NCBI RefSeq assembly: GCF_000013085.1
Contig: NC_007643.1
Span: forward strand, 1,473,001 to 1,537,000
Origin: Rhodospirillum rubrum ATCC 11170
GTDB lineage: Bacteria; Pseudomonadota; Alphaproteobacteria; Rhodospirillales; Rhodospirillaceae
Length of the DNA stretch: 64,000 nucleotides
Reading direction: 5' to 3'
Made by a program: the position numbers and the translations under genes. Positions within the stretch are counted from its first letter, which is position 1, and each line of letters begins with the position of its first letter. Under the pieces are notes generated by a model, which was given only the letters and a program-made list of their open reading frames with translations, ran no database searches and was not told the origin of the DNA. Of the stretch, positions 29,001 through 45,207 are shown piece by piece.

Positions 29001-31436
29001 ATGATTGCGCTTGAAAAATTGCTGCGCGAGAACGAGGACTGGCTGGTTCGCCGTGTCATCGACTACGCCCGGGAGCAGGGGTATATGGCTTATACCTCGA
29101 CTCTGGAAGAGGCGTGGCGGGCGGGGATGGTCGGGTTGATCGACGCCTTCCTGGCCGCCGAGGCCGATGGCACGCCGGCCGCGCCGCCGCGGGCGTCGCT
29201 TTCCTATACGGAAGATCCCGTCGCCGGCTATGGCATCGAGACCGCCAATCGTCACCGCGCCCGGGGGATCCCGCTGGCGCTGTTTCTCGGCCTGCTGAAA
29301 TACAACCGTCGCGCCCTGCTTGATCTGGCGGCGCGCGATCCCCGCCCGGCGGCTGATCAGGCCGAGATCAAGAACCGGATCGACAATTACTTCGACCGGG
29401 TGGAGCTGGGGTTGTGCGCGGCGTGGTCGCGTTTCGAGCGCGAGCAGGAGGTGGGAAAGCTGCGCGAGCGTAATCGCGATCTGGTCAATGAAAAGAACAA
29501 ATATCTGACGGCTTTCGAAAGCCTGACCGATCCGGTTTTCCTGATCAACGACGCGGGCGGCCTGGAAAACCTCAATCGCAGCGCCGGAATTCTGATCGGC
29601 TTTGGTCCCAGCCCCGGTGCGGGCTATTACGGCAGCGGCATTCCCCCCAGCGCCCAACGTCTGGTTGACGATCTGCTGGCGCGGTTTGCCCAGAAAGCCG
29701 CCGAGGCCGAAGGCGCCGAGAGCGATCGCATCGATTACCGGATGGACACGGTCGAGGGCCCGCGCGACTTCGAGGTGCGCCGTCAGGCCATGCTCGATGT
29801 CAGCGAGCGCTACAGCGGGCAGGTGCTGATCTTTTCCGATATCACCGCCTATAAGCGGGCCTCCGACCGCGCCGAGGAGGCCAATCAGGCCAAATCGACC
29901 TTTCTGGCGACGATGAGCCACGAGATCCGCACGCCGATCAACGGCATCCTCGGCCTTTCGACCCTGATGCGCGACGAGTTGCGCGACGAGCGCCTGCGCC
30001 ACCACGCCGACGCCATCGCCCTGTCGGCCGAGATGCTGCTGTCGATGGTCAACGACGTGCTCGATTTCACCAAGATCGAGGCCGGCATCTTGGATCTCGA
30101 TCCGGTCGATTTCTCGGTCGAGGAATTGCTCAACGGCGTCTTCGCCCTGGTCGCCCCCTCGGCCCACCGCAAGGGGCTAGAGGTCTATCGCAGCGTTTCG
30201 CCCGCCGTTCCCGAGCGGTTGCACGGCGATCTGGCCAAGCTGCGTCAGGTGCTGCTGAATTTGTTCTCCAACGCCGTGAAGTTCACCCATGCCGGGGCGC
30301 TGTCGATCCATATCGACCGCCTTGCCGAGGCGCCCGAGGGCAAGGTGATCCTTCATATCACCGTCGATGATACGGGCATCGGCATCGCGCCCTCGGCGCT
30401 CAAGGCGATTTTCGAGCCCTTCGCCCAGGCCGACGGATCGATCTCGCGGCGCTTTGGCGGCACCGGCATGGGCTTGGCGATCAATCGCCGGCTGGCCGAG
30501 GTCATGGGCGGCGAAGTCTGGGCCGAAAGCCGCGAGGGCGAGGGCAGCCGCTTTCACGTCACCGCCCTGCTTGAAGCGGCACGCCTGCCGCCGCCGCCGC
30601 CCGATACGGCCAATGGCCAGCCCCCGGCGTTTTTGGCCGATCGGCCGCTTTCGGTGCTGGTCGTCGATGACAACGACGTCAACCTGATGGTGGCCGAGGG
30701 GTTCCTGAAACGCTTCGGCCATGACGTCGTCTTGGCGCGCAATGGTCGCGAGGCCCGCGCCCTGCTTGAACACCGGCGCTTCGACGCCGCCTTGCTTGAT
30801 ATCAATCTTCCCGATGCCAACGGCCTGGATCTGCTGGCCGAGGTGCGGCGCCACGAGGCGGCGGTCGGTTTGCGTTCCATGCCGATCATCGTGCTGTCGG
30901 CCCATGTGATGCAGGCCGATATCGCCCGCTCGGCCCGTTTGGACGTGCGGTTCTTGGGCAAACCCTTCAACCCGGAGCGCCTGCGCCGCATGCTGCGCGA
31001 CCTGACCCGTCAGGACGACGACCCGAGGGCGGGGGAGGGCGACGGCGAGGGGCCGGTCGCCGAGGATTTCACCGCCGGACCGGTGCTGGTCGATCCCGCC
31101 GTGCTGCGCGGCCATGTGGAGATGCTGGGGGCGACGGCGGCGGGCAAGATCCTGGCCGCCTTCCACGGCTCGGCGCCGCGCACCCTGGCCACGCTGTGCT
31201 CCCATGTCGAGGCCGGCCGGATCGCCGAGGCGGAGGACGACGCCCATCGCCTGAAAAGCGCATCGGCCAATCTTGGCCTGGAGTGCCTGCGTCGGCGGGC
31301 GGCCGAACTGGAAGCCGCCTGCGGCCAGGGCGAAAGCGCCGCGGTCGGCGTGCTGGTCGAGCATCTGCCGACGCTGTTTGACTCGTCGCTGCGCGATCTT
31401 GATCGGCTGTGGGACGAGATCACCGCCAAGGGGTGA
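29001..31436 (+). CDS. Hybrid histidine kinase, DorS/TorS-like
   Basis: An 811-residue kinase. Residues 1-150 are an all-helical sensor resembling the RsbRD N-terminal domain (RENEDWLVRRVIDYAREQGY), then a PAS-like region (about 165-290), HisKA with phospho-His 307 in MSHEIRTPINGI, HATPase, a receiver domain (VLVVDDNDVNLM, ALLDINLPDANG) and a C-terminal HPt domain with DAHRLKSASANLGLE. Kinase-receiver-HPt order fits TorS/DorS phosphorelays. No membrane segment is visible, unlike E. coli TorS, so it must sense a cytosolic cue. Its likely partner DorR lies beyond the lasso island. Confidence 0.85.
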   Translation: MIALEKLLRENEDWLVRRVIDYAREQGYMAYTSTLEEAWRAGMVGLIDAFLAAEADGTPAAPPRASLSYTEDPVAGYGIETANRHRARGIPLALFLGLLKYNRRALLDLAARDPRPAADQAEIKNRIDNYFDRVELGLCAAWSRFEREQEVGKLRERNRDLVNEKNKYLTAFESLTDPVFLINDAGGLENLNRSAGILIGFGPSPGAGYYGSGIPPSAQRLVDDLLARFAQKAAEAEGAESDRIDYRMDTVEGPRDFEVRRQAMLDVSERYSGQVLIFSDITAYKRASDRAEEANQAKSTFLATMSHEIRTPINGILGLSTLMRDELRDERLRHHADAIALSAEMLLSMVNDVLDFTKIEAGILDLDPVDFSVEELLNGVFALVAPSAHRKGLEVYRSVSPAVPERLHGDLAKLRQVLLNLFSNAVKFTHAGALSIHIDRLAEAPEGKVILHITVDDTGIGIAPSALKAIFEPFAQADGSISRRFGGTGMGLAINRRLAEVMGGEVWAESREGEGSRFHVTALLEAARLPPPPPDTANGQPPAFLADRPLSVLVVDDNDVNLMVAEGFLKRFGHDVVLARNGREARALLEHRRFDAALLDINLPDANGLDLLAEVRRHEAAVGLRSMPIIVLSAHVMQADIARSARLDVRFLGKPFNPERLRRMLRDLTRQDDDPRAGEGDGEGPVAEDFTAGPVLVDPAVLRGHVEMLGATAAGKILAAFHGSAPRTLATLCSHVEAGRIAEAEDDAHRLKSASANLGLECLRRRAAELEAACGQGESAAVGVLVEHLPTLFDSSLRDLDRLWDEITAKG

Positions 31437-31757
31437 CGAGCGATGACTGATTTTGGTAAGGGCATGATCAGGCGGCGAACTGGGGGGCGGACCCCTCGAT
31501 GCCGTACCGGAAGCGGCCTTGGGGGACGCCGCTTAGACCAAGCGAGCGTTCGGGGAGCCGGTCGAGTTGAAGACGATAGGGGCGCATTCCTCGACGGCTT
31601 CTCTTATCCGAGGGAACGATGGTCGGCTTTGGGCTAAAAAACCTTATCCCGCTCGATGCCGCTGCGTGAAAGCGAGCAAATAACTCTCTGTTTCTCCAGG
31701 GAAAATTCAATGTTTTCAACGTCATCGGCAGCGGCCGATTCAAGTTTGTTTTGACGA
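31437..31757. other. Left boundary of the lasso island, no clear gene
   Basis: About 320 bp. A minus-strand frame (31468-31785) encodes GLSGVPQGRFRYGIEGSAP near its end but has no ribosome site and overlaps the sulfotransferase start; it may be a gene remnant. I recognise no promoter or terminator with confidence. Confidence 0.4.
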
Positions 31758-32591
31758 ATGCGGGGGATCTACTGGTTGGCCTCATATCCCCGTTCGGGAA
31801 ATACGTGGCTGAGGCTGATGTTGAACAGTTATGAACGGGGCGGGAAGCCCGTCAATATCAACAACCTGCCCATTTCAAATCTGATGTACAATCGGTCCTT
31901 TGCGGACACTGTGCTGGGTCAGGCGATGGGCGATCTGCTGCCGGCCGAGATTCTGGCGCTACGGCCAACGGTCATGCGGGCTGTGCGTGACAGCAGAAAC
32001 AATCCGGTAATGTTGAAAACCCATGATATGCGGCTGCGGCTTGCCGATGGGGAATGGCAATTGCCTGCCGATGTCAGCCTGGGTGGTGTTTATCTTGTTC
32101 GAGATCCCCGGGACGTGGCTTTGTCATTGGCTAGATTTATGGATTTATCCATCGACAAAACGATTGATGTCATGGGCAATTCTGAACAAATGCTAGCGAA
32201 TTCGATCACACGACAAAATATTCATTTGGTTAATATTCTAGGGGGGTGGAGCGAACATGTTCTGAGCTGGATGTCGCCTGTGCCCTTCCCTGTCCATGTT
32301 GTACGGTATGAAGATATGCGCCGCGACCCGGTTTCAACGCTGGCCGGCGTTCTGCCGGCCCTGGGTTATGCGGTGGATATGGACAAGATCAGGGCGGCCG
32401 TGGCCGAAACCTCGCTAGAGACCCTGCGCCGTCAGGAAGAGGCCAACGGCTTCGTCGAATATCCCAGCCCAAACCGGTTCTTTGGCGAAGGTCGGGTTGG
32501 CGGGTGGTCCGCCCGTCTTGGTTCCGCGCAGGCCGAGCGCATTTGCGCCGATCATCGGTTCGTCATGCAACAGCTTGGTTATCTGGATTGA
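31758..32591 (+). CDS. Sulfotransferase, probable lasso-peptide tailoring enzyme
   Basis: A 277-residue PAPS-dependent sulfotransferase. WLASYPRSGNTWLRLML is the 5'-phosphosulfate loop, GVYLVRDPRDVALSLARFMD the 3'-phosphate motif, and VVRYEDMRRDP and GRVGGWSARL typical later motifs. No good ribosome site precedes the ATG. GC and codon use are lower than in the core genome. It ends 11 bp from the convergent lasso cyclase gene. Sulfotransferases occur in some lasso clusters, so the precursor (one Tyr, several Ser/Thr in the core) is the proposed acceptor. Nothing in the sequence proves this. Confidence 0.8.
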   Translation: MRGIYWLASYPRSGNTWLRLMLNSYERGGKPVNINNLPISNLMYNRSFADTVLGQAMGDLLPAEILALRPTVMRAVRDSRNNPVMLKTHDMRLRLADGEWQLPADVSLGGVYLVRDPRDVALSLARFMDLSIDKTIDVMGNSEQMLANSITRQNIHLVNILGGWSEHVLSWMSPVPFPVHVVRYEDMRRDPVSTLAGVLPALGYAVDMDKIRAAVAETSLETLRRQEEANGFVEYPSPNRFFGEGRVGGWSARLGSAQAERICADHRFVMQQLGYLD

Positions 32592-32602
32592 GGCGGTGAC
32601 CG

Positions 32603-34531
32603 TTACTGGTTGCCGCCATTGGCCCAGCGCACGAAGCGCCCCATCTGCATCGCATTGGCGAAGACGAAACCATGGGAAAGGCGCATGGTTTCATGCGGGT
32701 GATCGGTTTTCGGCCATGTGGCGAGCATGTGGCGCATCTTTGGCAGATCCAGCATCTCGGCAATCAACCCATCCTGGCTGAAACTGTCGAGATCCGCGGC
32801 ATATGCCTCAAGCTGCGGGGTCATGCGGTGATTCCAGTCGACGCGCTGTTGCCCGATCGCGCGTTCATTGACGATGCTGTCTGGAACCCCGCGCATGGCG
32901 AGAAGGCGCCGGGCCAGACTACGGTTGCGTCCATCCAGAATGAACTGGTCGCGCGGGATGGCCAAAATGAATTCCAACAGATCACGGTCGGCGTAAACAT
33001 CGCGGTAATGCGTGCCGCGCACCGTTTCCAATGCGTGGGCGTTCGGCAATGTCATGGCGCGGCGTTTCAGCATGAAATGGATGATCTGCTGTCGGGATCG
33101 GCTATCGCGCTCTTGAAAGGGCTGTTCGCCATGATCGGCCAAATAGTCGTCAAGCCCCACCTTTTCCCGCCACCCCGGTCTGGTCAATGTGCGGTCCGCC
33201 AAGGGGTGTGGCCGACCACGCCAGCGCCTTTGACCGTAATAAAATGCGTCCGGCAGAAGCGGAACAACGACACGGTGGCGCACCATGGGCGCAAATCCTT
33301 GCTGCTTGTAGCGCGCTACTTGTGCCAGCAACCGCAGCGCGGTAAGCGGGCGTCCTTCCCGTATCAGATCGGCAAAGCAGAGATTGCCATCATAGCTGAA
33401 GGTGAAATTACCGCTCTGACCCGACAGAACCGCATCATGCCCGGCCTGTTGCATCTGCTGAAAGGCGATGTCCAGCCAACCGATCTGGTTGGCGATCATA
33501 CAAGGCAGCCCCGTCGCCATGAACAGATGCGCGGGGTTGGTTTCCAGGGGGGACGGGACAAGGCTGTGGCACAGCCTTATATCCAGATTGGTATGGCTCG
33601 CCGCCAGATCCGCCACCTTGGCCCTTTCGTCTCCATACCAGCCGCGATCGGCTGTAACGCACAGGCCAGGGGACGGGACGATCGTATAGGAGCGAACCTT
33701 CCGGTCTCCGGCCAGACGGGAGGCCGTGGTAAGCATGGCCGCGCTGTCTAGTCCGCCACTGCTTAGAAAGGCCGGGGCGTGGGCCGCCTGCAGGCGACGG
33801 GCGACAGCGCGTTCCAGCAACTCATCGGCCGCCTCCAGATACTCCCTCTCATTGGCCAGCCGCAGGCGCCGCTCGGCATCGGGGCGCCAGAGCGGGACAT
33901 ATCTGTTCGCGTTGACATCGGCGACCAGCATGTCGCCGGGCACTATCTGATGGATATCCTTATAGACGGTCCGAGTCGGATCTCCGACCATGGCGGAGAA
34001 GCGGGCCGTCAGATGCAACGGATCAACGACGCGGGGAATGTCGGGAATACGGTGAAGCCCCGCCACCGTGGTGGCAAAATGGCATATCGTGCCGACGCGA
34101 TGCCAGTATAGCAGGCGGCTGCCCATCGGGGCCACGGCCAAGAACAGTCGCCGTGCCCCGGGGTCCCAGTGAGATAGGGCATAATCGCCCGCCAGATCGG
34201 CCAGTCGATCGAGGCCGTGATGGGCGATCCAGGCAGCGGCCAGCCTGACATCGGGCCAGGAATGGTCACCCCCTAGCTTGCGGGCCAGCCTTTCCCGGTC
34301 AAAAAGATAGCCGCTGAACAACGTGACGCGTCCGGCGCCATCGTACTCTGGAGGCGGGCCTTTGCCGCCGGATCGCGGTACCGACAAAAAACAGGCTTTG
34401 TCATCCGACAGAGCCGCGCCCTTATTCCGGCGAGAGGGGTAATAGAGTCGATCCGTCACCCCTGGACTGAGAGGGGTTGTCCCAAAGGCCACGGACCCCG
34501 TGAGATCGGTCAGACCCCCGTTCTGCTTCAA
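32603..34531 (-). CDS. Lasso peptide cyclase (asparagine synthetase-like, protein C)
   Basis: A 642-residue protein with an N-terminal glutamine-amidotransferase-like domain lacking an initiating cysteine nucleophile (DLAGDYALSHWDPGARRLFLA region) and a C-terminal ATP-pyrophosphatase domain with the PP-loop FLSSGGLDSAAML near residue 257. Such enzymes adenylate the Asp/Glu side chain of the core and close the macrolactam with the N-terminal amine. The start is taken as TTG 34531, 38 nt after the precursor stop. Closest alternative, a true asparagine synthetase, is disfavoured by the missing Cys1 and the neighbours. Confidence 0.85.
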   Translation of the reverse strand: MKQNGGLTDLTGSVAFGTTPLSPGVTDRLYYPSRRNKGAALSDDKACFLSVPRSGGKGPPPEYDGAGRVTLFSGYLFDRERLARKLGGDHSWPDVRLAAAWIAHHGLDRLADLAGDYALSHWDPGARRLFLAVAPMGSRLLYWHRVGTICHFATTVAGLHRIPDIPRVVDPLHLTARFSAMVGDPTRTVYKDIHQIVPGDMLVADVNANRYVPLWRPDAERRLRLANEREYLEAADELLERAVARRLQAAHAPAFLSSGGLDSAAMLTTASRLAGDRKVRSYTIVPSPGLCVTADRGWYGDERAKVADLAASHTNLDIRLCHSLVPSPLETNPAHLFMATGLPCMIANQIGWLDIAFQQMQQAGHDAVLSGQSGNFTFSYDGNLCFADLIREGRPLTALRLLAQVARYKQQGFAPMVRHRVVVPLLPDAFYYGQRRWRGRPHPLADRTLTRPGWREKVGLDDYLADHGEQPFQERDSRSRQQIIHFMLKRRAMTLPNAHALETVRGTHYRDVYADRDLLEFILAIPRDQFILDGRNRSLARRLLAMRGVPDSIVNERAIGQQRVDWNHRMTPQLEAYAADLDSFSQDGLIAEMLDLPKMRHMLATWPKTDHPHETMRLSHGFVFANAMQMGRFVRWANGGNQ

Positions 34532-34569
34532 GGCAGGCCCCGATTGCGGATGGCGGTCCGAAGCGGCAT

Positions 34570-34725
34570 TCAGGATGACGTATAGGTGCCAGAACCGTCA
34601 TCGCCGGAACTTATATTGCCGCCCGTGAACTCGTTCACGGTAAGGGCGGTCAGCGTCTCAAGGGGAGGGATCCAGGCGGGCTTCGTGGCGGGGGGGCGGG
34701 TGATTTCCTGAAAAGTCTTTTCCAT
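34570..34725 (-). CDS. Lasso peptide precursor (51 residues)
   Basis: A short frame that starts MEKTFQEITRPP. The leader carries PAWIPPLETLTAL, which fits the aromatic-x-P-P-L recognition motif bound by lasso B1 proteins. It ends NEFTG, giving the required threonine at position -2. The proposed core is GNISSGDDGSGTYTSS: Gly1 can form an isopeptide ring with Asp8 (or Asp7), Tyr13 could act as plug and the C-terminus is Ser. The gene lies between the leader-peptidase gene and the cyclase on the same strand. Ribosome site weak (AAGAG). The core boundary is inferred. Confidence 0.72.
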   Translation of the reverse strand: MEKTFQEITRPPATKPAWIPPLETLTALTVNEFTGGNISSGDDGSGTYTSS

Positions 34726-34776
34726 GGAGGTTCAAACTCTTGTTTGAAGGTTTCGCATCGCATCCGCACTAAGTTA

Positions 34777-34819
34777 GAGTAGTCATACTCCCTGGGGAAA
34801 TGGGTTGTCCACTTTCCCC
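34777..34819. repeat. Two inverted repeats in front of the lasso precursor
   Basis: GGGGAAA (34794-34800) pairs with TTTCCCC (34813-34819), and GAGTA (34777-34781) with TACTC (34786-34790). They occupy the 96 bp between the leader-peptidase stop and the precursor start, so they could be an attenuator, an operator or an mRNA hairpin that sets the high precursor-to-enzyme ratio. Confidence 0.5.
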
Positions 34820-34821
34820 GG

Positions 34822-35298
34822 TCACCCGCTCTTGTGAGTGCGGATGGGCTCTGCGATGAACATCGCCAGCGGCTTATAATCACCGGCAATAGCGCCGCCC
34901 GTGATGTCGATCCCCAGGGAAAGCAGCCAGGCATGGGCGGGGTCTTCCTCCGGCCCCCTCGGGGTTCTTAGACCGAGAAAGGTCAAGCTCGGCAATCGAC
35001 GGCGTCGTAACATCAATCGCCCGGCCAGGGCTCGCATCAGGCAGGTGCTGGTCCAGGGCAGGCGGGACGCGGCCGATATCAGGGCGGCGCGAATGGCCGT
35101 GGCCTGCGCGCGCCCGCTTGTGTCCGCTGCTGGATCAGTCATGGGGAAGGCTGGAACCGGCATCGGCCGCCCCAACAGGAGGGCGGTGAACCGGAAGGGC
35201 AGAAAACGGATGCAAAACCAAGCGATAGCGAGCAGTGCCAAGGCTTCGACAACCCTGCGCCGGTGGGCAAACTGGGGTCGCATCCCCCTATCGCGCAT
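34822..35298 (-). CDS. Lasso peptide leader peptidase (B2, transglutaminase-like)
   Basis: A 158-residue protein of the transglutaminase-like B2 family that cuts off the leader. The catalytic cysteine is in STCLMRALAGRLML and the histidine in AHAWLLSLG; GDYKPLAMF is the typical C-terminal part. ATG 35298 follows GGAGGG and lies 1 bp after the kinase stop. A helical, hydrophobic N-terminus (VVEALALLAIAWFCIRFLPF) may anchor it to the membrane or to B1. Confidence 0.85.
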   Translation of the reverse strand: MRDRGMRPQFAHRRRVVEALALLAIAWFCIRFLPFRFTALLLGRPMPVPAFPMTDPAADTSGRAQATAIRAALISAASRLPWTSTCLMRALAGRLMLRRRRLPSLTFLGLRTPRGPEEDPAHAWLLSLGIDITGGAIAGDYKPLAMFIAEPIRTHKSG

Positions 35299-35299
35299 G

Positions 35300-36271
35300 T
35301 CAGTCCCTCCGCTCGTCGCGCGCCAGTCTGATAACGTGATCGGCCAAATCGGGTAATGCTCCCAAATCGTCACGCCGGTTCAACTGGATAATCGGAGCAG
35401 ATCTGACCAGGGGGGCCAAGGCCGTGAGCATGGTGCTTTGATATCCGAGCGCTATGCCAAGGCGGAAACGATGGATCAGATCGTAACACAGAGCCTCCGC
35501 CCCCAGCAGAGGTCGGGTTCCAACCTGTTCCGCCCGGGTAACCCGTTTCAGCCTGATGATGGTCCCTGGCCCCAAGGGGGCGTCGCTCGCCGATCGCACG
35601 GGTATTCTGAACTTATCGAGATGCCGGCGAACGGGTGTCATACCGTCTGTGGCGATGCCCAGCCGCGCGGCGGCGTCTCCCCAGAGCTTCAGATGGGCGG
35701 TACAGGGTAAAATCATCGGCTTATCCGGACAAGAGACGTCCAGGGCGCACAGATCATCGGACAGCAGCGGGTAACCGCGCGCCAGCAGGGCGGCGGCCAG
35801 GGTGGATTTCCCCGTCCCGGATTCCCCCGACAGCAGCAGCGCGCGCCCGTCAAGCGCCACCGCACTGGCATGCAAAGGGATCAGCCCACGCCGGAAACAA
35901 AGCACGGCCAACACCGTACCGAAGAAAAACAATCGGATCTCCGGGGCGTCGGCCGCGATACCGCGAGCGGCTTCGATGGTGACAAGATGTCCGCCATCGA
36001 CCCGGTAGCGGGCCACGTCGGGGACATCGAAGCAGAGGGTGGCTTCTATGAAACGGATCCGGGGGCTGAACACCTGCGCCCCGTCGTCCAGGGGGGAGAC
36101 AGCGGCAACGCGGATCAGAATATCGGGGGCGCGTCCATCGCCCGCCCAGACCGGCAATTCCGGCAGAGGCAGGTCCGCTCGCACACGCCAGCCGAACAGG
36201 TCGCGGTCACCGTCAGGTGAAGGCGCATCGACGGGCGGAGCGGGAGTGGGCTGGACAGGCATTTCATTCAT
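35300..36271 (-). CDS. HPr kinase-like protein, probable lasso-peptide kinase
   Basis: A 323-residue protein whose C-terminal half is HprK-like: LIPLHASAVALDGRALLLSG and GESGTGKSTLAAALL (Walker A), then PLLSDDLCALDV with the catalytic aspartates. The N-terminal 140 residues are unlike HprK. Homologues in lasso clusters (ThcoK from the paeninodin-type family) phosphorylate the C-terminal serine of the precursor, and the precursor here ends SS, so that is the predicted reaction. The start (36271 or 36262) lacks a clear ribosome site. Confidence 0.82.
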   Translation of the reverse strand: MNEMPVQPTPAPPVDAPSPDGDRDLFGWRVRADLPLPELPVWAGDGRAPDILIRVAAVSPLDDGAQVFSPRIRFIEATLCFDVPDVARYRVDGGHLVTIEAARGIAADAPEIRLFFFGTVLAVLCFRRGLIPLHASAVALDGRALLLSGESGTGKSTLAAALLARGYPLLSDDLCALDVSCPDKPMILPCTAHLKLWGDAAARLGIATDGMTPVRRHLDKFRIPVRSASDAPLGPGTIIRLKRVTRAEQVGTRPLLGAEALCYDLIHRFRLGIALGYQSTMLTALAPLVRSAPIIQLNRRDDLGALPDLADHVIRLARDERRD

Positions 36272-36354
36272 AATTTAGCATTGTGGCGATGCTTCCATAG
36301 GCATCAGAATTACTCTGATTCAAGTTGAAATCCATAGTGTCTACGAGGCTGACA

Positions 36355-36630
36355 ATGGTCGATTTGATGAGCACGGTGTCTCGGAATAAAAATATAATTT
36401 CTGCTGTTGTTCACGAAGAGACTGTCGCTTTAAGTGTAGAAAACGGTATGTACTATACGTTTTCTATTACAAGTCATGAAATTTGGCGGCGTCTGTCCAG
36501 CCCCGTCCAAGTCGACGACCTATGCGCTGATCTGGCGGAGGCTTATGCCGCTGATCGGACCATCATTGAAGCAGATACGGTCGCTTTCCTAAACCATCTT
36601 TTTAGCCTGGGATTGATACACGTTTCCTGA
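36355..36630 (+). CDS. PqqD-like leader-recognition protein (lasso B1)
   Basis: A 91-residue PqqD-fold protein starting at ATG 36355, with GAGG 6 nt upstream. VALSVENGMYYTFSITSHEIWRR has the strand-turn pattern and G-x-Y-x-x-N/S-x-x-(G/S)-xx-IW core of recognition elements that bind RiPP leaders. It is divergent from the HprK-like gene, sharing the 36.27-36.35 kb promoter region, and clearly AT-rich. Split B1/B2 proteins are usual outside the enterobacterial McjB type. Confidence 0.82.
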   Translation: MVDLMSTVSRNKNIISAVVHEETVALSVENGMYYTFSITSHEIWRRLSSPVQVDDLCADLAEAYAADRTIIEADTVAFLNHLFSLGLIHVS

Positions 36631-36709
36631 TATCCGGCCGCTGCCATCCGCTCACGGATGACCCGGCCATTCAGCGAAGACGACATCAAGCAGCCGGGGC
36701 GGGCGAGGA

Positions 36710-37459
36710 TCAGCCGCCCTGGCGCGCGGCCGATTTCTCGGGCGATCCCGGTTCGATATGGCGGCTGTCGGCGAACACATAGCCGATGCCGTGGACGGTG
36801 ATGATATGGCGCGGCGCCTTGGGATCGGCTTCGATCTTGCGGCGCAGGCGGCCGACCAGAACGTCGACCGTGCGGTCACTGGGCGCCCAGTCGCGGTGGC
36901 TGACGTAATCAAGCAGGTTGTCGCGGGTCATCACCCGGCCCGGGCGGCTGGCGAAGCAGCACAACAGCTCGAATTCCCCGCGCGTCAGCCGCACGTCGCT
37001 GCCATCGGGGGCGAACAGGCAGCGCCTGGGAATATCAAGCGTCCAGCCGGCGAAGGATTTCTGGTTCTCGTCCTCGGAGGCTTCGCGGGCGCTTAACGTC
37101 CGGCGCAACAGGTTCTTGGCGCGGGCGAGCAGCTCGCGGACGTTGAAGGGTTTCGTCACATAATCATCGGCGCCCATTTCCAGGGCGACGATGCGATCGA
37201 CCTCGTCGTCCTTGCCGGTGACCATGATCACCCCAACCTCGGACTGATGACGAATTTCCCTTAAAAGCTGTAGTCCGTCGACGCCGGGCAGGCGGATGTC
37301 GAGCAAGATCAGATCAACGGTCTGCTGCGAAAACACTTTGCGCATGCTATCGCCGTCTTCAACGTCGCTTACCTTGTATCCCTCTTTACGCAAATAGGCG
37401 GCGAGGGTTTCGCGGCCGACGGGATCGTCCTCTACCACGAGAATATGATGGTTTGCCAT
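36710..37459 (-). CDS. dorR: TorR/DorR-type response regulator
   Basis: A 249-residue OmpR-family regulator starting at MANHHILVVEDDPV, nearly superposable on E. coli TorR (MPHHIVIVEDEPV). Receiver: acidic pair EDD, phospho-acceptor in LILLDIRLPGVDG, then MVTGKDDEVDRIVALEMGADDYVTKPF. The winged-helix domain is at the C-terminus (LTRGEFELLCCFASRPGRVMTRDNLLDYV, TVDVLVGRLRRKIE). It is divergent from dorC. Phosphorylated by the hybrid kinase, it should activate dorC and dorA via the TTCACATCATT elements. Confidence 0.88.
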   Translation of the reverse strand: MANHHILVVEDDPVGRETLAAYLRKEGYKVSDVEDGDSMRKVFSQQTVDLILLDIRLPGVDGLQLLREIRHQSEVGVIMVTGKDDEVDRIVALEMGADDYVTKPFNVRELLARAKNLLRRTLSAREASEDENQKSFAGWTLDIPRRCLFAPDGSDVRLTRGEFELLCCFASRPGRVMTRDNLLDYVSHRDWAPSDRTVDVLVGRLRRKIEADPKAPRHIITVHGIGYVFADSRHIEPGSPEKSAARQGG

Positions 37460-37505
37460 CATTAAGAGCATTCCCCCTTGCTGGTCCGTTTTTGTTTACG
37501 CACGG

Positions 37506-37557
37506 TTCACATCATTCTACAGCGTATTCATTTTTGCGCGGAAGCGGGTTTACAGCG
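37506..37557 (+). promoter_or_regulatory. Candidate DorR-responsive promoter element of dorC
   Basis: TTCACATCATT at 37506-37516, a second TTCAT element about 18 bp on and GTTTACAGCG at 37548-37557. The same three pieces recur, with the same spacing, upstream of dorA (45017-45068). TTCA-type repeats are the known TorR/DorR recognition pattern. The element lies 130 bp before dorC and 47 bp from the dorR start, so it could also serve dorR. Confidence 0.65.
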
Positions 37558-37691
37558 GGGCTCTATGGATAGGCCCGGGTGGCGGATCCGTTTGCTCCCC
37601 CCAGGGGTCGTTCCGGGACCCCGATCTCAGCTCCCAAATCTTGGGCTCAAGATATGATCTGACCTGCCCCAAGCAGGCACGAGAGGCTGTA

Positions 37692-38870
37692 ATGATTAAG
37701 CGCATCTGGACTGTTGTATGGAAGCCCAGCGCCCGCTGGGGATTGGGTGTTCTTCTGATCGTTGGCGCGGTGGGCGGCGTGGTGGGCTGGAACGTGTTCC
37801 ATGGCGCGCTTGAACACACGAATTCGATCGAATTCTGTATTTCCTGCCATACGATGGAGAATACGGTTTTCCAGGAATACAAACAAAGCCCCCACTATAA
37901 GAACGCCTCGGGCGTGCGCGCCGGCTGTCCGGATTGCCACGTGCCCAAGGAAGGTCTGCCGCTGTACGCAGCCAAGTTGAGGGCGTCGAAGGACGTTTAC
38001 CACGAGATCCTGGGGACGATTGACACCCCCCAGAAATTCGAGGATCGCCGCCTGGAGATGGCCCAAAGGGTTTGGGCGCGCATGGAAGAGACCGATTCGC
38101 GCGAATGCCGGTCGTGCCATTCCTACGACTCGATGGACTTCCACGCTCAGAAGCCCAAGGCGGCGGCGATGATGGAAAAGGCCATGGGCGAGGGGGAAAC
38201 CTGCATCGCCTGCCACAAGGGCATCGCCCACAAGCTTCCCGATATGTCGGCGGGCTACAAGAAGACTTTCGCCAATTTGCAAGCCCTGGCGGCCAAGGAA
38301 GGCGCCAAGGCCAAGACCCTGATCAATCTTGATACCAAGCCGCTGTTTCTTGACCGCGCCACGGCGAGCGCCGGCGGCAAGGGCGATGGCAAGCTGCTGT
38401 CGGGCAGCGAGGTCGCCGTTGCCGAGCGGGATGGCGACTGGCTGAAGGTGACGGTGTCGGGCTGGCAGCAGGAAGGCGCCGAGCGGGTGATCTACGCCCT
38501 CAAGGGCCAGCGCATCTTCACCGCCGCGCTTGACGCCTCGGCCACGGCGGCGGTCACCGTCACCGAAACCGTCGTCGATGCCGATACCGAGCTGACCTGG
38601 AAAAAGGTGACGCTGCAGGCTTGGCTGTCGAAGGACGCCATGTTGGGCGATAGCGACAAGCTGTGGGCCTATGGCAAGGAGATGTACGGCGCCGCCTGCG
38701 GCACCTGCCATTCCCTGCGCGCCCCCGATCACTTCCTGGCCAACCAGTGGATCGGCACCCTGAAGGCGATGAAGCGCTTCGTCAGCCTTGATGATGAGCA
38801 GTACCGCTTCTTGCAGAAGTACCTCCAGCTTAACGCCAAGGATACTGGCGGGGCCGGGGCCCATGGGTAA
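37692..38870 (+). CDS. dorC: Pentahaem cytochrome c, quinol dehydrogenase of DMSO/TMAO respiration
   Basis: A 392-residue membrane-anchored NapC/NirT-type cytochrome. The N-terminal helix (WGLGVLLIVGAVGGVVGWNVF) anchors it, followed by four haem motifs CISCH, CPDCH, CRSCH, CIACH and a fifth, CGTCH, in a C-terminal extension typical of TorC/DorC. It takes electrons from the quinol pool and passes them to the periplasmic reductase. ATG 37692 has GAGAGG 5 nt upstream. Its stop overlaps the start of dorD. Confidence 0.92.
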   Translation: MIKRIWTVVWKPSARWGLGVLLIVGAVGGVVGWNVFHGALEHTNSIEFCISCHTMENTVFQEYKQSPHYKNASGVRAGCPDCHVPKEGLPLYAAKLRASKDVYHEILGTIDTPQKFEDRRLEMAQRVWARMEETDSRECRSCHSYDSMDFHAQKPKAAAMMEKAMGEGETCIACHKGIAHKLPDMSAGYKKTFANLQALAAKEGAKAKTLINLDTKPLFLDRATASAGGKGDGKLLSGSEVAVAERDGDWLKVTVSGWQQEGAERVIYALKGQRIFTAALDASATAAVTVTETVVDADTELTWKKVTLQAWLSKDAMLGDSDKLWAYGKEMYGAACGTCHSLRAPDHFLANQWIGTLKAMKRFVSLDDEQYRFLQKYLQLNAKDTGGAGAHG

Positions 38871-39492
38871 GATCAGCGCGATGACGTCCCCCGCCGATGA
38901 GGCCGATGTCGGTCAGGCCGCGCTTTTCCTGTGGTTCGCCAAGGCCTTTGGCTGGCCCGACGCCGAACTGGTGGCGAGTTTGCGCGGAGCGCCGCGCGGC
39001 CGTCCGGCCCTGCCCGAGCTGTTGGGCGATCTGCCCGGCGCCGAGATGGCGGTGGCGCGGATCAAGGAGATCCTTGATGCCGAAGCCGACGACGCGGCCC
39101 TGCTCGCCCAGCTTCAGCGGGCCCATGGGGCGCTGTTCGAGGGCTTCGGCGGGCTGATCACCGTGCCGCCCTATGAATCCGCCTTCGCCGGCGGCGAGGC
39201 CCGGCTGTTCGGCGCGCCGACCCGGGCGATCGAGGAGATCCTCGCCCGCCTCGACCTGCGGGTGGCCGAAGCCACCTCGGAGCCGGCCGATCATATCTGC
39301 GTTGAGCTCAACCTGCTGGCCCATCTGACGCTTTCGGGCAAGGACGCCGCCAACGACCGCCAGGGGCTGCTTGACGATCACCTGCGGCGCTGGCTGCCCG
39401 ACTTCGTCACCGCCCTGCACGGCAGCGACCGCCTGGGCTTCCACGCCGCTTGCGGCGATCTGCTGATCTTGCTGATCGACGTCGAAGCCTGA
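38866..39492 (+). CDS. dorD: TorD/DorD-like molybdoenzyme chaperone
   Basis: A 208-residue all-helical cytosolic chaperone. VPPYESAFAGGEARLFG, DHICVELNLLAHL (the conserved E-x-x-L-x-x-L motif) and a C-terminal LGFHAACGDLLILL are typical of the TorD/DmsD/NarJ family. It should keep the molybdenum enzyme folded and hold its Tat signal until cofactor is inserted. The ATG at 38866 overlaps the dorC stop; an ATG at 38881 is an alternative. Its client, dorA, now lies 5.7 kb downstream behind the STAND island. Confidence 0.85.
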   Translation, partial: GKISAMTSPADEADVGQAALFLWFAKAFGWPDAELVASLRGAPRGRPALPELLGDLPGAEMAVARIKEILDAEADDAALLAQLQRAHGALFEGFGGLITVPPYESAFAGGEARLFGAPTRAIEEILARLDLRVAEATSEPADHICVELNLLAHLTLSGKDAANDRQGLLDDHLRRWLPDFVTALHGSDRLGFHAACGDLLILLIDVEA

Positions 39493-39944: not shown

Positions 39945-42900
39945 ATGATGGATCCACTGCAAGGGTGCTTGCTGCGCCTGCTGCGTTCAGATGGTGAAAG
40001 CGATATCATCGTTGGTACTGGTTTTTTATCCCTTGGTGCTGATGGGCGGCCTTATGTCTTGACGTGCGCCCATGTTGTGAACGCTGCTTTAGGGCGGGAC
40101 AAAACGGAGACAAGCCACCCGGGTTCATGCGTTGTGATGGCAAATCAGCAAGGGGGAAAGCCAATTCCCTTGGATTTGCAGGCGTGGAACGCGCCAATTT
40201 CCGGGGCTTCTGGGAACTCTGATATCGCGGATATCGCCATCCTGACGCCGCTTCAATCCCTGAGTGCGTCCTGGCTCCCAAGACTGCGAGCCGAACCGCC
40301 TAGTCGGGTGGTGCCGCATAATAGTAAAGTTCCATTCCATAGCTTTGGCTTCATGGTAACCTCCGATGGAAATCCGGCCCGAGGATCTCTGACTGCCGTT
40401 GATTTCGCGAATCGGTTTGTTGCGCACGGTGACCACACCTTCCGCCGTTTTATTGAGGAAGGATTAAGTGGGGCGCCTGTTTTCTCAGACGATAGTCGTG
40501 TCCTTGGCATGGTGGCGCGCCGGCTTGCGGTCGAAGACAAACAAGGCTTGGTGATTTCCGCCTTCGCCTTAGCGCAAGCTTGGCCGCTGCTGGCTATGCC
40601 TTATCCGGGATTACCTTCCTTTGAGGCGTCTAACGCCCATCTTTTTTTTGGCCGAGGGCGTCCTGTAAACGGGGAGGTTCCGACTGGCAAGCTGAAGGAG
40701 TTGCTGGAGCGCCTACAAAAGCAGCGTCTCGTGGCGCTTGTTGGTGCATCCGGTAGTGGTAAATCATCGCTAGCTAATGCCGGGGTGGCAGAATATTATC
40801 GTCAACGTAATTGGCGCGTTGTTAGCTTTCGGCCTGGTCTCGCGCCATTGCGCAATCTTTCTGAAGCCATTTTTGAAGTAATAGAAGAAGGAGAGACCGT
40901 CTTATCGAGACTACAGACCGTAAGCTATTGGGAGAGTCTCCTGAAAAGAGGCATGCTGAGGGATGCCTTTGACTGTATAAATAGAGCTGGGGCCGATGGC
41001 ACTCTGGTTATCGTGGATCAATTTGAAGAGTTTTTCCCAGGACGAGAAGCCTCTTCTTATGATAATGGCGATCTTTCCGTTGACTTAGATCCTATAGCCC
41101 AGGAAAGGTCGTTGATTCTGAAGCAATTGCGTCAAGCTGAGGATCGTGCTGATGTGCACTGTCTTCTGACAGTGCGCCTTGATCTATTGGAATCCATAAT
41201 TAAAGGAGGAAAAGACGCGGCCAGATTGTTATCTGATCCTTATCCAATCTTTATGCTGACAGCTATGACCGCCAGCGAAGTGCGGGAAGCTATCGTGGGG
41301 CCGGCTCAAGTTTTTGGTGTCGAAACAGACACCAATTTTGCCACCAACTTGGCTGCCGAAGTTACCAAGGGCGAAGGTCGTCTGCCCCTTTTGCAGGAAG
41401 CGTTGCGTCAATGCTGGGCTCGCATAAGGTTTGGAGAGCAAGGCTGGAATTTGTATCAACCAGAAGATCTTTCTGAAGGAAAAGAAATCCTTTTGCTTGA
41501 AGAGTCGGTTGGGCGGCGTGGCGATGAAGCGATGGGGGAAATAGAAAGGCATTACAAGCCAGTCGAGGTTAATCGCATGTTGCTGTCCCTGGTCCGGTGG
41601 GTGGACGGTCGCCCGCTCCGGCGCATTCTATCCATGATGGAGAGTGATGAATCTGACGTTCCCATGATTGCGATGCTGGCTAATCAACGCTTGGTGATTC
41701 TAAGCGGGGATGGGTCCCGCCGGACTGCCGAGTTAGTGCACGAGGCACTGATGACCCGTTGGGCACGGTTGGCGAGTTTGATTAGCAACCACCACGTCTT
41801 TCTAGAGTGGCGCGATCGGTTTGATCGAGAGTTTATCGTATGGGAACGTGGCAGGTGTGAGGAAAAGGACCTTCTACGTCGCCATGATGTACAATTGGCG
41901 ATGAGTTGGAAAGAGAATGTTGATGGTTTTTTTATCGCTCCCACATCTCGTCAATTAAAATTTATTGATGAAAGTTATTTATTTTATGAAAAAGAAGAAA
42001 TAAGACGAGAGGAGGATTTTAGACAAAAAGAGAAACAAAATAGACGCATTCGAAAATGGTTGCTGTTATCTATTTTTGCACTATTTTTATTTTTTATATT
42101 TTTATGTCTAAGTATATTTACTTTTAAAAAAGCTCAAGATGAAACTTATTCCGCTCAGATGCAGGAATCCAGGGCTCTGGCCGTACTCGCTCGCCAAGAG
42201 AGCGAAAAGGGAGATCAAGGGACAGCCATACTCTTAGCCTTGGAGGGCTTGCCTGACCCCGGGTTTGGCGGGAAGCGGCCTTTATCTCCCGAGGCAGCTA
42301 CCATGCTGCGCCAAGCTTGGTTGCGAAATAGGGAGGTGACCACGGTGGGGTATGATGGTCCGGTGCGTGTCGCAAGCTTGAGTTCCGATGGCCAGCGTGT
42401 GGTTGTGGCATCTGACGACGAAATAGTGCGGGTGTGGGATTTGTCAGCACCAAAATCACCAGGAATCAACTTGGGGGAGCATCAAGGATCAGTGTTTTCT
42501 GCCAATCTGAGCCCTGATGGCCAGCGTGCGGTCACCGCATCCTATGATGGAATAGTGCTGGTGTGGGATCTTTCGGCACCGAAATTTCCGGCGATTACTT
42601 TGGCGGGGTCTTCAGGTTCAGTGCTTTCTGGCAGGGAATCTGTCAGTTTTAGTCCTGATGGTCAGCGTGTACTCAAGACATCAGAAGATGGAACCGCGCA
42701 GGTGTGGGACCTGTCGTCATCCAAAATCCAAGCGATCACTCTGGGGGAGCGGGGACATTACGTGCAGTCCGCCAGTTTCAGTCCCGATGGCCGGCGTGTG
42801 GTCACTGCATCAAGTGACGGAGCAGCACAAGTGTGGGATCTATCAGCACCAAAAACTCAGGCGATTCTTCTTGAGGGACACGAGCAACCAGTGCAGTCCG

Positions 42901-44420
42901 CTAGTTTCAGCCCCGATGGCCAGAAGGTGGTTACTGTATCAAGTGACGGAACAGCACGAGTTTGGAATCTTTCAGAGCCCAAACCTCAAGCGCTTTTACT
43001 TGATGGACACAAAGGTCTTGTACAATTAGCCAGCTTCAGTCCCGATGGGCAACATGTGGTCACGGCATCAGGTGATACAGCACGGGTTTGGGACTTGTCG
43101 GCACCAAAGTCTCAGGCATTTCTCCTCGAGGGACATGAGGGGTCAATACAATCCGCGAGCTTCAGCCCCGACGGTCGACGCGTGGTTACCGGCTCAGGTG
43201 AAGGTACGGTACGAGTGTGGGATCTATCGGCACCCAAATCTCAACCGATCCTCTTGAGAGGGCATCTGAGAGCGACGTTTTTTGCCAGATTTAGCGCCGA
43301 CGGCAGGTCTGTCGTTACAGCTTCTTATGACGGAACAGCGCGAGTATGGGCTGTGCCGGCGGTTGAGCCAGGGGAACTTTTCTTGGAAGGATCCGATGAC
43401 TCAGTGCGGTCCGCCAGCTTCAGTCCTGATGGCGAGCATTTGGTTACGATATCTGACGATAAAACGGTGCGGGTGTGGGATCTCTCGGTACCTAAGCCTC
43501 GATCGCTTCTCCTGGAGGGATATGAAGGTTCGGTGCAATCCGCGAGCTTTAGCCCCGATGGGCAGCGTTTGGTCACGGTATCGGATGACAAAACCGCACG
43601 CGTGTGGGACCTCGCAGAACCTAAAGCTAAGGCGCTTATTCTTGAGGGGGACGATGCTTCGGTAGGCTCCGCTAGCTTTAGTCCGGACGGTCGGCGTGTG
43701 GTCACAGCTTCTTATGACAAAACGGCACGTGTGTGGGACCTATCGGCACTTAAACCCCGGGCGATCACCTTGGAGAGTAGTCTTGGTTGGGTGGGATCGG
43801 CCAACTTTAGCCCGGACGGTCAGCGTGTGGTCGGGGCCTCTTATGGCGGAGCGCAGATATGGGATCTTTCAGTCCCTGAACGACCAAAATTGTGCATGCG
43901 TCTCAAGCAGCTAAACGCAGGATTGCTACAATCTGCTAGCTTCAGCCCCGACGGTGGACGCGTGGTCACAGTATCTGATGGTGGGACAAGAGTTGTGGAT
44001 CTATCGACACCAAAATCCCCACCGATCACGTTAGGGGGGCGTCTGGATCGAGCGCGATCCGCCAGCTTTAGCCCCGACGGTCAGCGCGTACTCACTGCGT
44101 CCTATGATGGGACGGCACGGGTTTGGGACTTGGCCGGTTCTCAGGCCTCCGCCCTCGTCCTTGGTGAATACTCTAGCTCTATGCTCTACGCCAACTTCAG
44201 TCGTGATGGACGCAGGGTATTAACCTTTTCTTCGCCAAATAAGCTGCGCGTTTGGGATGTTTATCCGGATATTAGGGAGCTCTCTTCTCTCGTAAGAAAG
44301 CGGTTAACGCGGTGCCTATCCACTGCTCAGCGGGAGGAGTTTGGTTTGCGGGTGGAAGATAGAAAGCGGAACCGTGATGCCATTCCAATTCCCGATTCTG
44401 AAGGAAACTGTCCCCGTTGA
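39945..44420 (+). CDS. Trypsin-like protease/STAND NTPase/WD40 protein, predicted defence effector
   Basis: A 1491-residue protein. Residues 1-215 are a trypsin-fold peptidase with His43 in LTCAHVV, an aspartate in SDIADIAIL (93 or 96) and Ser175 in EEGLSGAPVF. Residues 255-640 are a STAND NTPase (Walker A VGASGSGKSS at 267, Walker B LVIVDQFEEFF at 354, VHEALMTRW near 600). A single membrane helix lies around 704-727, and from 800 to about 1445 there are 15 WD40 repeats. Low GC, in a likely transferred island. Recognition by the WD40 array is expected to trigger oligomerisation and proteolysis. The function as anti-phage defence is inferred from architecture. Confidence 0.88.
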   Translation: MMDPLQGCLLRLLRSDGESDIIVGTGFLSLGADGRPYVLTCAHVVNAALGRDKTETSHPGSCVVMANQQGGKPIPLDLQAWNAPISGASGNSDIADIAILTPLQSLSASWLPRLRAEPPSRVVPHNSKVPFHSFGFMVTSDGNPARGSLTAVDFANRFVAHGDHTFRRFIEEGLSGAPVFSDDSRVLGMVARRLAVEDKQGLVISAFALAQAWPLLAMPYPGLPSFEASNAHLFFGRGRPVNGEVPTGKLKELLERLQKQRLVALVGASGSGKSSLANAGVAEYYRQRNWRVVSFRPGLAPLRNLSEAIFEVIEEGETVLSRLQTVSYWESLLKRGMLRDAFDCINRAGADGTLVIVDQFEEFFPGREASSYDNGDLSVDLDPIAQERSLILKQLRQAEDRADVHCLLTVRLDLLESIIKGGKDAARLLSDPYPIFMLTAMTASEVREAIVGPAQVFGVETDTNFATNLAAEVTKGEGRLPLLQEALRQCWARIRFGEQGWNLYQPEDLSEGKEILLLEESVGRRGDEAMGEIERHYKPVEVNRMLLSLVRWVDGRPLRRILSMMESDESDVPMIAMLANQRLVILSGDGSRRTAELVHEALMTRWARLASLISNHHVFLEWRDRFDREFIVWERGRCEEKDLLRRHDVQLAMSWKENVDGFFIAPTSRQLKFIDESYLFYEKEEIRREEDFRQKEKQNRRIRKWLLLSIFALFLFFIFLCLSIFTFKKAQDETYSAQMQESRALAVLARQESEKGDQGTAILLALEGLPDPGFGGKRPLSPEAATMLRQAWLRNREVTTVGYDGPVRVASLSSDGQRVVVASDDEIVRVWDLSAPKSPGINLGEHQGSVFSANLSPDGQRAVTASYDGIVLVWDLSAPKFPAITLAGSSGSVLSGRESVSFSPDGQRVLKTSEDGTAQVWDLSSSKIQAITLGERGHYVQSASFSPDGRRVVTASSDGAAQVWDLSAPKTQAILLEGHEQPVQSASFSPDGQKVVTVSSDGTARVWNLSEPKPQALLLDGHKGLVQLASFSPDGQHVVTASGDTARVWDLSAPKSQAFLLEGHEGSIQSASFSPDGRRVVTGSGEGTVRVWDLSAPKSQPILLRGHLRATFFARFSADGRSVVTASYDGTARVWAVPAVEPGELFLEGSDDSVRSASFSPDGEHLVTISDDKTVRVWDLSVPKPRSLLLEGYEGSVQSASFSPDGQRLVTVSDDKTARVWDLAEPKAKALILEGDDASVGSASFSPDGRRVVTASYDKTARVWDLSALKPRAITLESSLGWVGSANFSPDGQRVVGASYGGAQIWDLSVPERPKLCMRLKQLNAGLLQSASFSPDGGRVVTVSDGGTRVVDLSTPKSPPITLGGRLDRARSASFSPDGQRVLTASYDGTARVWDLAGSQASALVLGEYSSSMLYANFSRDGRRVLTFSSPNKLRVWDVYPDIRELSSLVRKRLTRCLSTAQREEFGLRVEDRKRNRDAIPIPDSEGNCPR
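42340..44270 (+). repeat. Fifteen tandem WD40 repeat units in the STAND gene
   Basis: Units of about 43 codons (129 bp) recur with a strongly conserved core, S-F-S-P-D-G-Q/R-R-V-V-T-A-S, then D-G-T-A-R-V-W-D-L-S. Several units differ at only a few positions. Two seven-bladed propellers plus one spare unit would fit. Confidence 0.9.
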
Positions 44421-45068: not shown

Positions 45069-45207
45069 TCCTGTTAGGTCTGGTGGTCATCGGGGTCGGC
45101 TTCGCGGCGCTTTGTCTGGGCGGTCGCGGGGTCCGGTTCCCGCTTCTGGGGGCCGTCGCACGCGGCTTTCAGGGACTTCCCGAGATGAACAACAAGGATC
45201 GCAACCC

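Follow-up and report, generated by a model that had tools for sequence, protein, structure and literature searches.

The lasso-type genes in this part of the Rhodospirillum rubrum chromosome raise the question of whether a 51-codon frame lying among them is a true peptide precursor, and what a gene set that joins a kinase and a sulfotransferase to lasso enzymes would make of it. Within the window, a stretch of 64,000 nucleotides (positions 1473001-1537000 of the chromosome contig, G000:C2), six genes at 31758-36630 stand in the order sulfotransferase (ST, +), asparagine-synthetase-like macrolactam synthetase (C, -), precursor (A, -), leader peptidase (B2, -), HprK-like kinase (K, -), and PqqD-type leader-binding protein (B1, +). 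The genes for C, B2, B1, and the kinase were every one present where the first-pass annotation had put them; the ST gene falls inside the same interval, yet had gone unnamed there. K, B2, A, and C are co-directional with short gaps, the B2 ATG lying one base past the K stop and the C start 38 bases after the A stop. ST is convergent with C, their stops being 11 bases apart, and B1 is divergent from K.

On one side of the block lies a hybrid histidine kinase gene (29001-31436); on the other, an OmpR-type regulator gene (36710-37471) precedes a NapC/TorD/molybdopterin-reductase set (NapC-type cytochrome and TorD-like genes). Over positions 29001-39492, the arrangement looks like a TMAO/DMSO reductase regulon into which the lasso block was inserted. 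ST, C, and K have a third-position G+C of 0.61-0.71, against the 0.8 typical of neighbouring genes, which suggests that the block is acquired DNA. Further along, between a TorD-like gene (38788-39492) and a molybdopterin oxidoreductase gene (45112-47679), a gene at 39945-44420 (+) encodes a protein of 1491 aa that combines an nSTAND1 NTPase domain with many WD40 repeats; its third-position G+C is low (0.49), and it seems to be an acquired STAND-type gene with a role in signalling or defence.

The precursor frame (34570..34725, -) encodes 51 aa with the leader MEKTFQEITRPPATKPAWIPPLETLTALTVNEFTG and the core peptide GNISSGDDGSGTYTSS (34573..34620, -), for which a Gly1-Asp8 ring and an 8-residue tail with Ser as its last residue are predicted; conservation, a spacing test, and a motif scan all bear on it. 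When the short frames of the window were scanned with the family motif W..P-x(9-13)-T-x8-[DE]-x(3-14)-end, A was the single match, and random 64-kb sequences of the same composition gave 0.2 matches each, none of them with a final Ser. The cyclases closest to C are those of G020 (64% identical), G013 (52%), G214, and G479, and each of these four orthologues has an A-like short frame upstream, reading KHLTE before GNISAGDDGSGTYTLS in G020, TEFTA before GNISAGDDGSGTYTLS in G013, AEFTQ before SDSSPGDDGLGVFTQS in G214, and AEFTQ before SSLSPGNDGSGINTAS in G479. The orthologous cores follow GNIS[SA]GDDGSGTYTxS or a relative of it, being near-identical in G020 and G013 and related in G214 and G479. 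From Thr(-2) to the end, the window precursor differs from that of G020 at 14 codons (11 synonymous, 3 non-synonymous) and from that of G013 at 11 codons (8 synonymous, 3 non-synonymous), a surplus of synonymous differences which argues that A is a translated, selected peptide whose core, as judged from these codons, is under purifying selection. The first-pass annotation, which had proposed this frame as a lasso precursor and named the absence of a conserved frame in relatives as the outcome that would speak against it, is thus matched by orthologues in four other genomes, and by sequence comparison we regard the frame as a genuine lasso-type precursor. The leader motif, proposed there as aromatic-x-P-P-L, is corrected to W-x-x-P-L at -18 to -14. 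The textbook lasso leader motif is YxxPxL, which is not quite the same. Since precursors of the A family escape the standard models, the family is probably under-counted.

Precursors of class II lasso peptides carry Thr, or rarely Ile, Val, or Ala, at -2 and an acid at +7 to +9 of the core. The geometry of the core was examined across about 30 precursors adjoining homologous cyclases, which carry Thr(-2) and an Asp or Glu at +8 with fixed spacing. In a sample of 20 such precursors, picked regardless of their Thr-acid spacing and related (hence not independent) with very diverse cores, a Thr stands nine positions ahead of an Asp or Glu in 16, against a shuffle mean of 5.7 (p<=0.0005), and among the spacings from 4 to 15 that were scanned, only 9 was enriched. 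L027 (QTADGWSPGND) is a 17th precursor that fits, outside the script's count, and the 15 least similar precursors show the spacing in 11 cases against 4.0 expected (p=0.0002). These alignments point to an 8-residue ring defined by Thr(-2) and the acid at +8, and the Thr that had been claimed at -2 is conserved in the window and all four orthologues. Between the two acceptors offered earlier, Asp7 and Asp8, the latter was upheld: Asp7 was ruled out by the spacing test and by the Asn at residue 7 in the G479 orthologue (locus L122), which leaves Asp8 as the predicted acceptor. Residue 1 varies among G, S, T, K, E, and D and is non-Gly in many relatives, so that Gly1 is no family rule.

Of the enzymes around the precursor, B1 and B2 match lasso-specific models or solved structures. 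B1 (36325..36630, +; PF05402, E=1.7e-15) matches the lasso PqqD chaperone structure 9x90 (1.2e-9) and TbiB1 (5v1u/5v1v), and it scores 55 bits against NF033536, under the cut-off of 80. B2 (34822..35298, -), a transglutaminase-like leader peptidase (PF13471, E=3.9e-17), reaches about 58.3-58.8 bits against NF033537, for which the cut-off is 33, and keeps its aligned catalytic residues, the Cys of TCLM and the His of AHAW. C (32603..34531, -; PF00733, E=9e-18) has the Asn_synthase fold and an SGGLDS motif and no N-terminal Cys, while its score for the curated lasso cyclase model stays far short of the cut-off, which, like the low B1 score, counts against the lasso reading. The conserved precursor, the B1 match to lasso leader-binding structures, and a B2 above the curated cut-off together support the first-pass reading of a lasso biosynthetic cluster. 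The orthologous clusters of G020, G013, and G214 are without B2 and each of these genomes encodes one elsewhere, which argues that B2 can probably act in trans; in G479, B2 and an ABC exporter adjoin the cluster. In G019, which also has such gene sets, no B2 could be recognised anywhere in the genome, and because pseudomycoidin, going by a title cited in PMC9266682, is synthesized without leader and leader peptidase, B2-less gene sets need not be fatal to the lasso reading.

The kinase (35300..36271, -) matches sequence models weakly (TIGR04352, E=1.9e-12, under cut-off), and its profile finds HPr kinases as the best PDB matches. Its active-site set His-Lys-Asp-Asp is present (PLHAS/GTGKST/LLSDD), and these residues are reported to be essential in lasso kinases (PMC9266682). 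Known lasso kinases target the precursor's C-terminal Ser (PMC8498205, PMC9266682), though BsfK phosphorylates Ser3 instead (PMC10368454). By using a motif blind to the last residue, so that a final Ser was not presupposed, we found one in 31 of 32 motif-bearing precursors, one of the 32 (L019) being possibly spurious, and the window precursor itself ends in TYTSS. This conservation fits an HprK-type kinase; by analogy, the expected target of K is the final Ser of A, and the peptide product is probably phosphorylated.

The PAPS-dependent sulfotransferase (31758..32591, +; PF00685, E=2.4e-20) is found in all four orthologous clusters. Its PAPS-binding motifs are intact (5'-PSB, YPRSGNTWL; 3'-PB, VRDPRDVALS; and GGW) and conserved in 9 homologues, and its profile finds the glycopeptide-antibiotic sulfotransferases Teg14 and Teg12, together with SULT1A1, as the best structural matches. 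Across the tabulated loci, ST is present in 29 of the 45 that bear a cyclase, and 31 of 38 ST copies stand immediately downstream of a kinase gene with the same orientation; the window cluster and its two nearest orthologues retain ST as well, but with C between it and K. Judged by this linkage, ST belongs to the lasso system, and the same linkage indicates that the peptide product may be sulfated. Three hydroxyl residues, Ser4, Thr14, and Ser16, are shared by the five orthologous cores. Position 13 is Tyr in R. rubrum, Phe in L065, and Asn in L122, and Tyr13 was thereby ruled out as a general sulfation site. Sulfotransferase genes near lasso genes have been noted before (PMC4289311, PMC8498205), and a table in PMC10040529 holds, uncommented, neighbouring B2, sulfotransferase, PqqD, and Asn-synthase gene clusters in Pontixanthobacter; no sulfated lasso peptide was found in the literature searched. 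Because the lasso kinase of this alphaproteobacterial family normally has a sulfotransferase as its tandem partner, sulfation can be tested in a laboratory strain, R. rubrum.

Taken as a whole, the locus is probably a kinase-type lasso-peptide cluster, a reading that we favour with good though not full confidence. The precursor, the Thr(-2)-Asp8 geometry, the C-terminal Ser conservation, the active-site motifs, and the gene sets are established by comparison, and from there we infer the chemical steps, their order, threading, and export. B1 would bind the W-x-x-P-L leader of A, and K would phosphorylate Ser16 at the C-terminus, probably ahead of ring closure, as in paeninodin. ST, normally the tandem partner of K, would sulfate most likely the linear precursor at Ser4, Thr14, or Ser16; sulfation at Tyr13 may be possible in R. 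rubrum, though the position is not conserved. B2 would then cut the leader off after Gly(-1), and C would close an 8-residue macrolactam from the Gly1 amine to Asp8, through which the 8-residue tail probably threads. The calculated [M+H]+ of this macrolactam is 1486.593, against 1504.603 for the linear core; phosphate would add 79.966 and sulfate 79.957, two values 9.5 mDa apart, and a product bearing both would lie at 1646.516. Export would proceed via a transporter encoded outside the cluster: the first-pass view that the cluster holds no exporter was borne out, and a search for the R. rubrum exporter with the ABC protein of a relative returned many ABC transporters at 30-35% identity, none of which could be singled out. 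The accompanying view that no isopeptidase is present holds for the whole R. rubrum genome, in which no match to the lasso isopeptidase model NF033523 was obtained at E<=0.001.

Most characterised lasso peptides vary far less at residue 1 than the A family does. With residue 1 often non-Gly and the aromatic at position 13, which might plug the ring, replaced by Asn in G479, a threaded form is not assured, and the product could instead be an unthreaded branched-cyclic peptide, in which Gly1 and Asp8 form a macrolactam and the modified tail stays free. Short tails, often without bulky residues (GNGSTS in L023, TFSLS in L028, GSGINTAS in L122), lean the same way, but in B1, B2, and precursor grammar the family agrees with lasso clusters, and to our knowledge all characterised members of that grammar thread, so that we regard the unthreaded form as rather unlikely. 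Another alternative is that C is not a macrolactam synthetase and amidates Asp8 of the phospho/sulfo-peptide or joins Asp8 to another amine. C does fall far under the cut-off of the curated lasso cyclase model NF033535 (110.9 bits against 525, E=6.5e-32), and among solved structures it is nearest to a hydroxyamidotransferase and beta-lactam synthetase; the acid is nevertheless kept exactly at +8 from the Thr(-2) cleavage site, which is what ring closure on the freed alpha-amine needs, and this makes such a role for C very improbable.

A further alternative to the lasso-cluster reading is partial decay: the copy in R. rubrum may be a paralogue left stranded and no longer yielding a product. Among the five B2 copies of R. 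rubrum that exceed the NF033537 cut-off, the one here has the lowest score, there is no exporter in the cluster, the codon composition is unlike that of the surroundings, and a neighbourhood of phage tail collar genes seen in the orthologues of G013, G214, and G479 has been lost. All six frames are nevertheless open with intact active-site motifs, and the core is under purifying selection, so that decay seems improbable.

The collar linkage itself extends over much of the family. Many such clusters adjoin a run of three phage tail collar genes (PF07484), in most cases accompanied by an acetyltransferase gene. Of 314 genomes sampled from the order of R. rubrum, 104 have collar genes; among the 18 genomes of that order with a close cyclase, 17 do, and 15 have a collar run no more than about 10 kb from cyclase, kinase, ST, B1, or B2 genes. 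R. rubrum is among the 15: its collar genes are at C2:1717746-1719047, and its paralogous cyclase at 1725209 has a precursor that reads EKTR before GASVGNIETFSLS; the window cluster is not itself collar-linked, unlike three of its four orthologues. As controls, 11 genomes have triplets and no close cyclase, and there the triplets (nine with the acetyltransferase gene) stand without lasso-type genes. Rough probabilities are 3.5e-8 for co-occurrence and about 1e-21 for placement; neither takes relatedness into account, and they say no more than that the pattern is far from random. Outside the order, the same linkage appears in 3 of 10 further genomes with a cyclase match (G479, G584, and G667). 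Triplets with the acetyltransferase gene stand beside lasso-type sets at L094, L095, L018, L065, L069, L072-L074, L089, L090, L092, L093, L122, L135, and L136, and PF07484 copies sometimes number 6 to 12. No description of a link between lasso peptides and tail collar or tail fiber genes was found in the literature searched. The collar-triplet linkage provides a first hint of where such peptides may act, and we tentatively raise the idea, itself doubtful, that the kinase-sulfotransferase pair makes lasso peptides both phosphorylated and sulfated, which act jointly with the neighbouring collar fibre triplet and its acetyltransferase in a surface function; the peptide may, for example, be carried on a surface fibre or regulate it. 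If so, the RiPP would be part of a cell-surface system rather than a free antibiotic.

The R. rubrum genome holds four more gene sets of the family with their own precursors, L020, L023, L026, and L028, at about 1018, 3485, 975, and 1725 kb of C2, two of them with extra kinase or 2OG-oxygenase genes. A strict motif search of the paralogous clusters returned the precursor of L028 alone, and a cyclase-anchored search recovered the remainder. Two or three kinases and two sulfotransferases per cluster occur at L066, L020, L021, and L022, and the predicted cores of L020-L022 start with Lys-Lys (ERTN before KK). At L123:7419-8100, three tandem precursors with cores starting IKGGSATD, AKGTTITE, and GKGSVFND lie upstream of a single cyclase. 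L127 (G631:C3:1-19000), with three cyclases, several K-ST pairs, B2, and 2OG-oxygenase genes in 19 kb, is perhaps a hot spot for such clusters.

By comparison with known systems, this is a kinase-type (paeninodin) lasso cluster with a sulfotransferase, and its general kind is therefore not new, whereas its composition and context are. Paeninodin-type clusters (PadeK, ThcoK, SyanK; Zhu et al. 2016, as relayed in PMC8498205 and PMC9266682) likewise combine A, B1, B2, and C with an HprK-like kinase, a precursor with C-terminal Ser, and the kinase residues His-Lys-Asp-Asp. In the R. rubrum type, by contrast, a sulfotransferase is regularly included, the cluster lacks an ABC exporter, B1 and ST are encoded on the opposite strand, the ring is predicted to have 8 residues and to close on Asp8, and orthologous clusters can lack B2. 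The bsf cluster of Bradymonas sediminis (PMC10368454) is also of the kinase type, with split B1/B2, a Gly1-Asp8 ring, and an aromatic-x-x-P leader motif; however, its kinase acts on Ser3, its precursor has Ile at -2, and it carries nucleotidyltransferase and exporter genes and no sulfotransferase. Firmicute and anaerobe lasso clusters (PMC8498205, PMC4289311) share an HPr kinase and a sulfotransferase near the lasso genes, but the sulfotransferase gene is mentioned there in passing, without a product, and neither the K-ST tandem nor the alphaproteobacterial precursor family is described for them. The glycopeptide sulfotransferases Teg12, Teg14, and StaL, finally, provide the best solved-structure matches to ST and tailor peptide antibiotics; they act on non-ribosomal glycopeptide aglycones, whereas the presumed substrate of ST is a ribosomal precursor.
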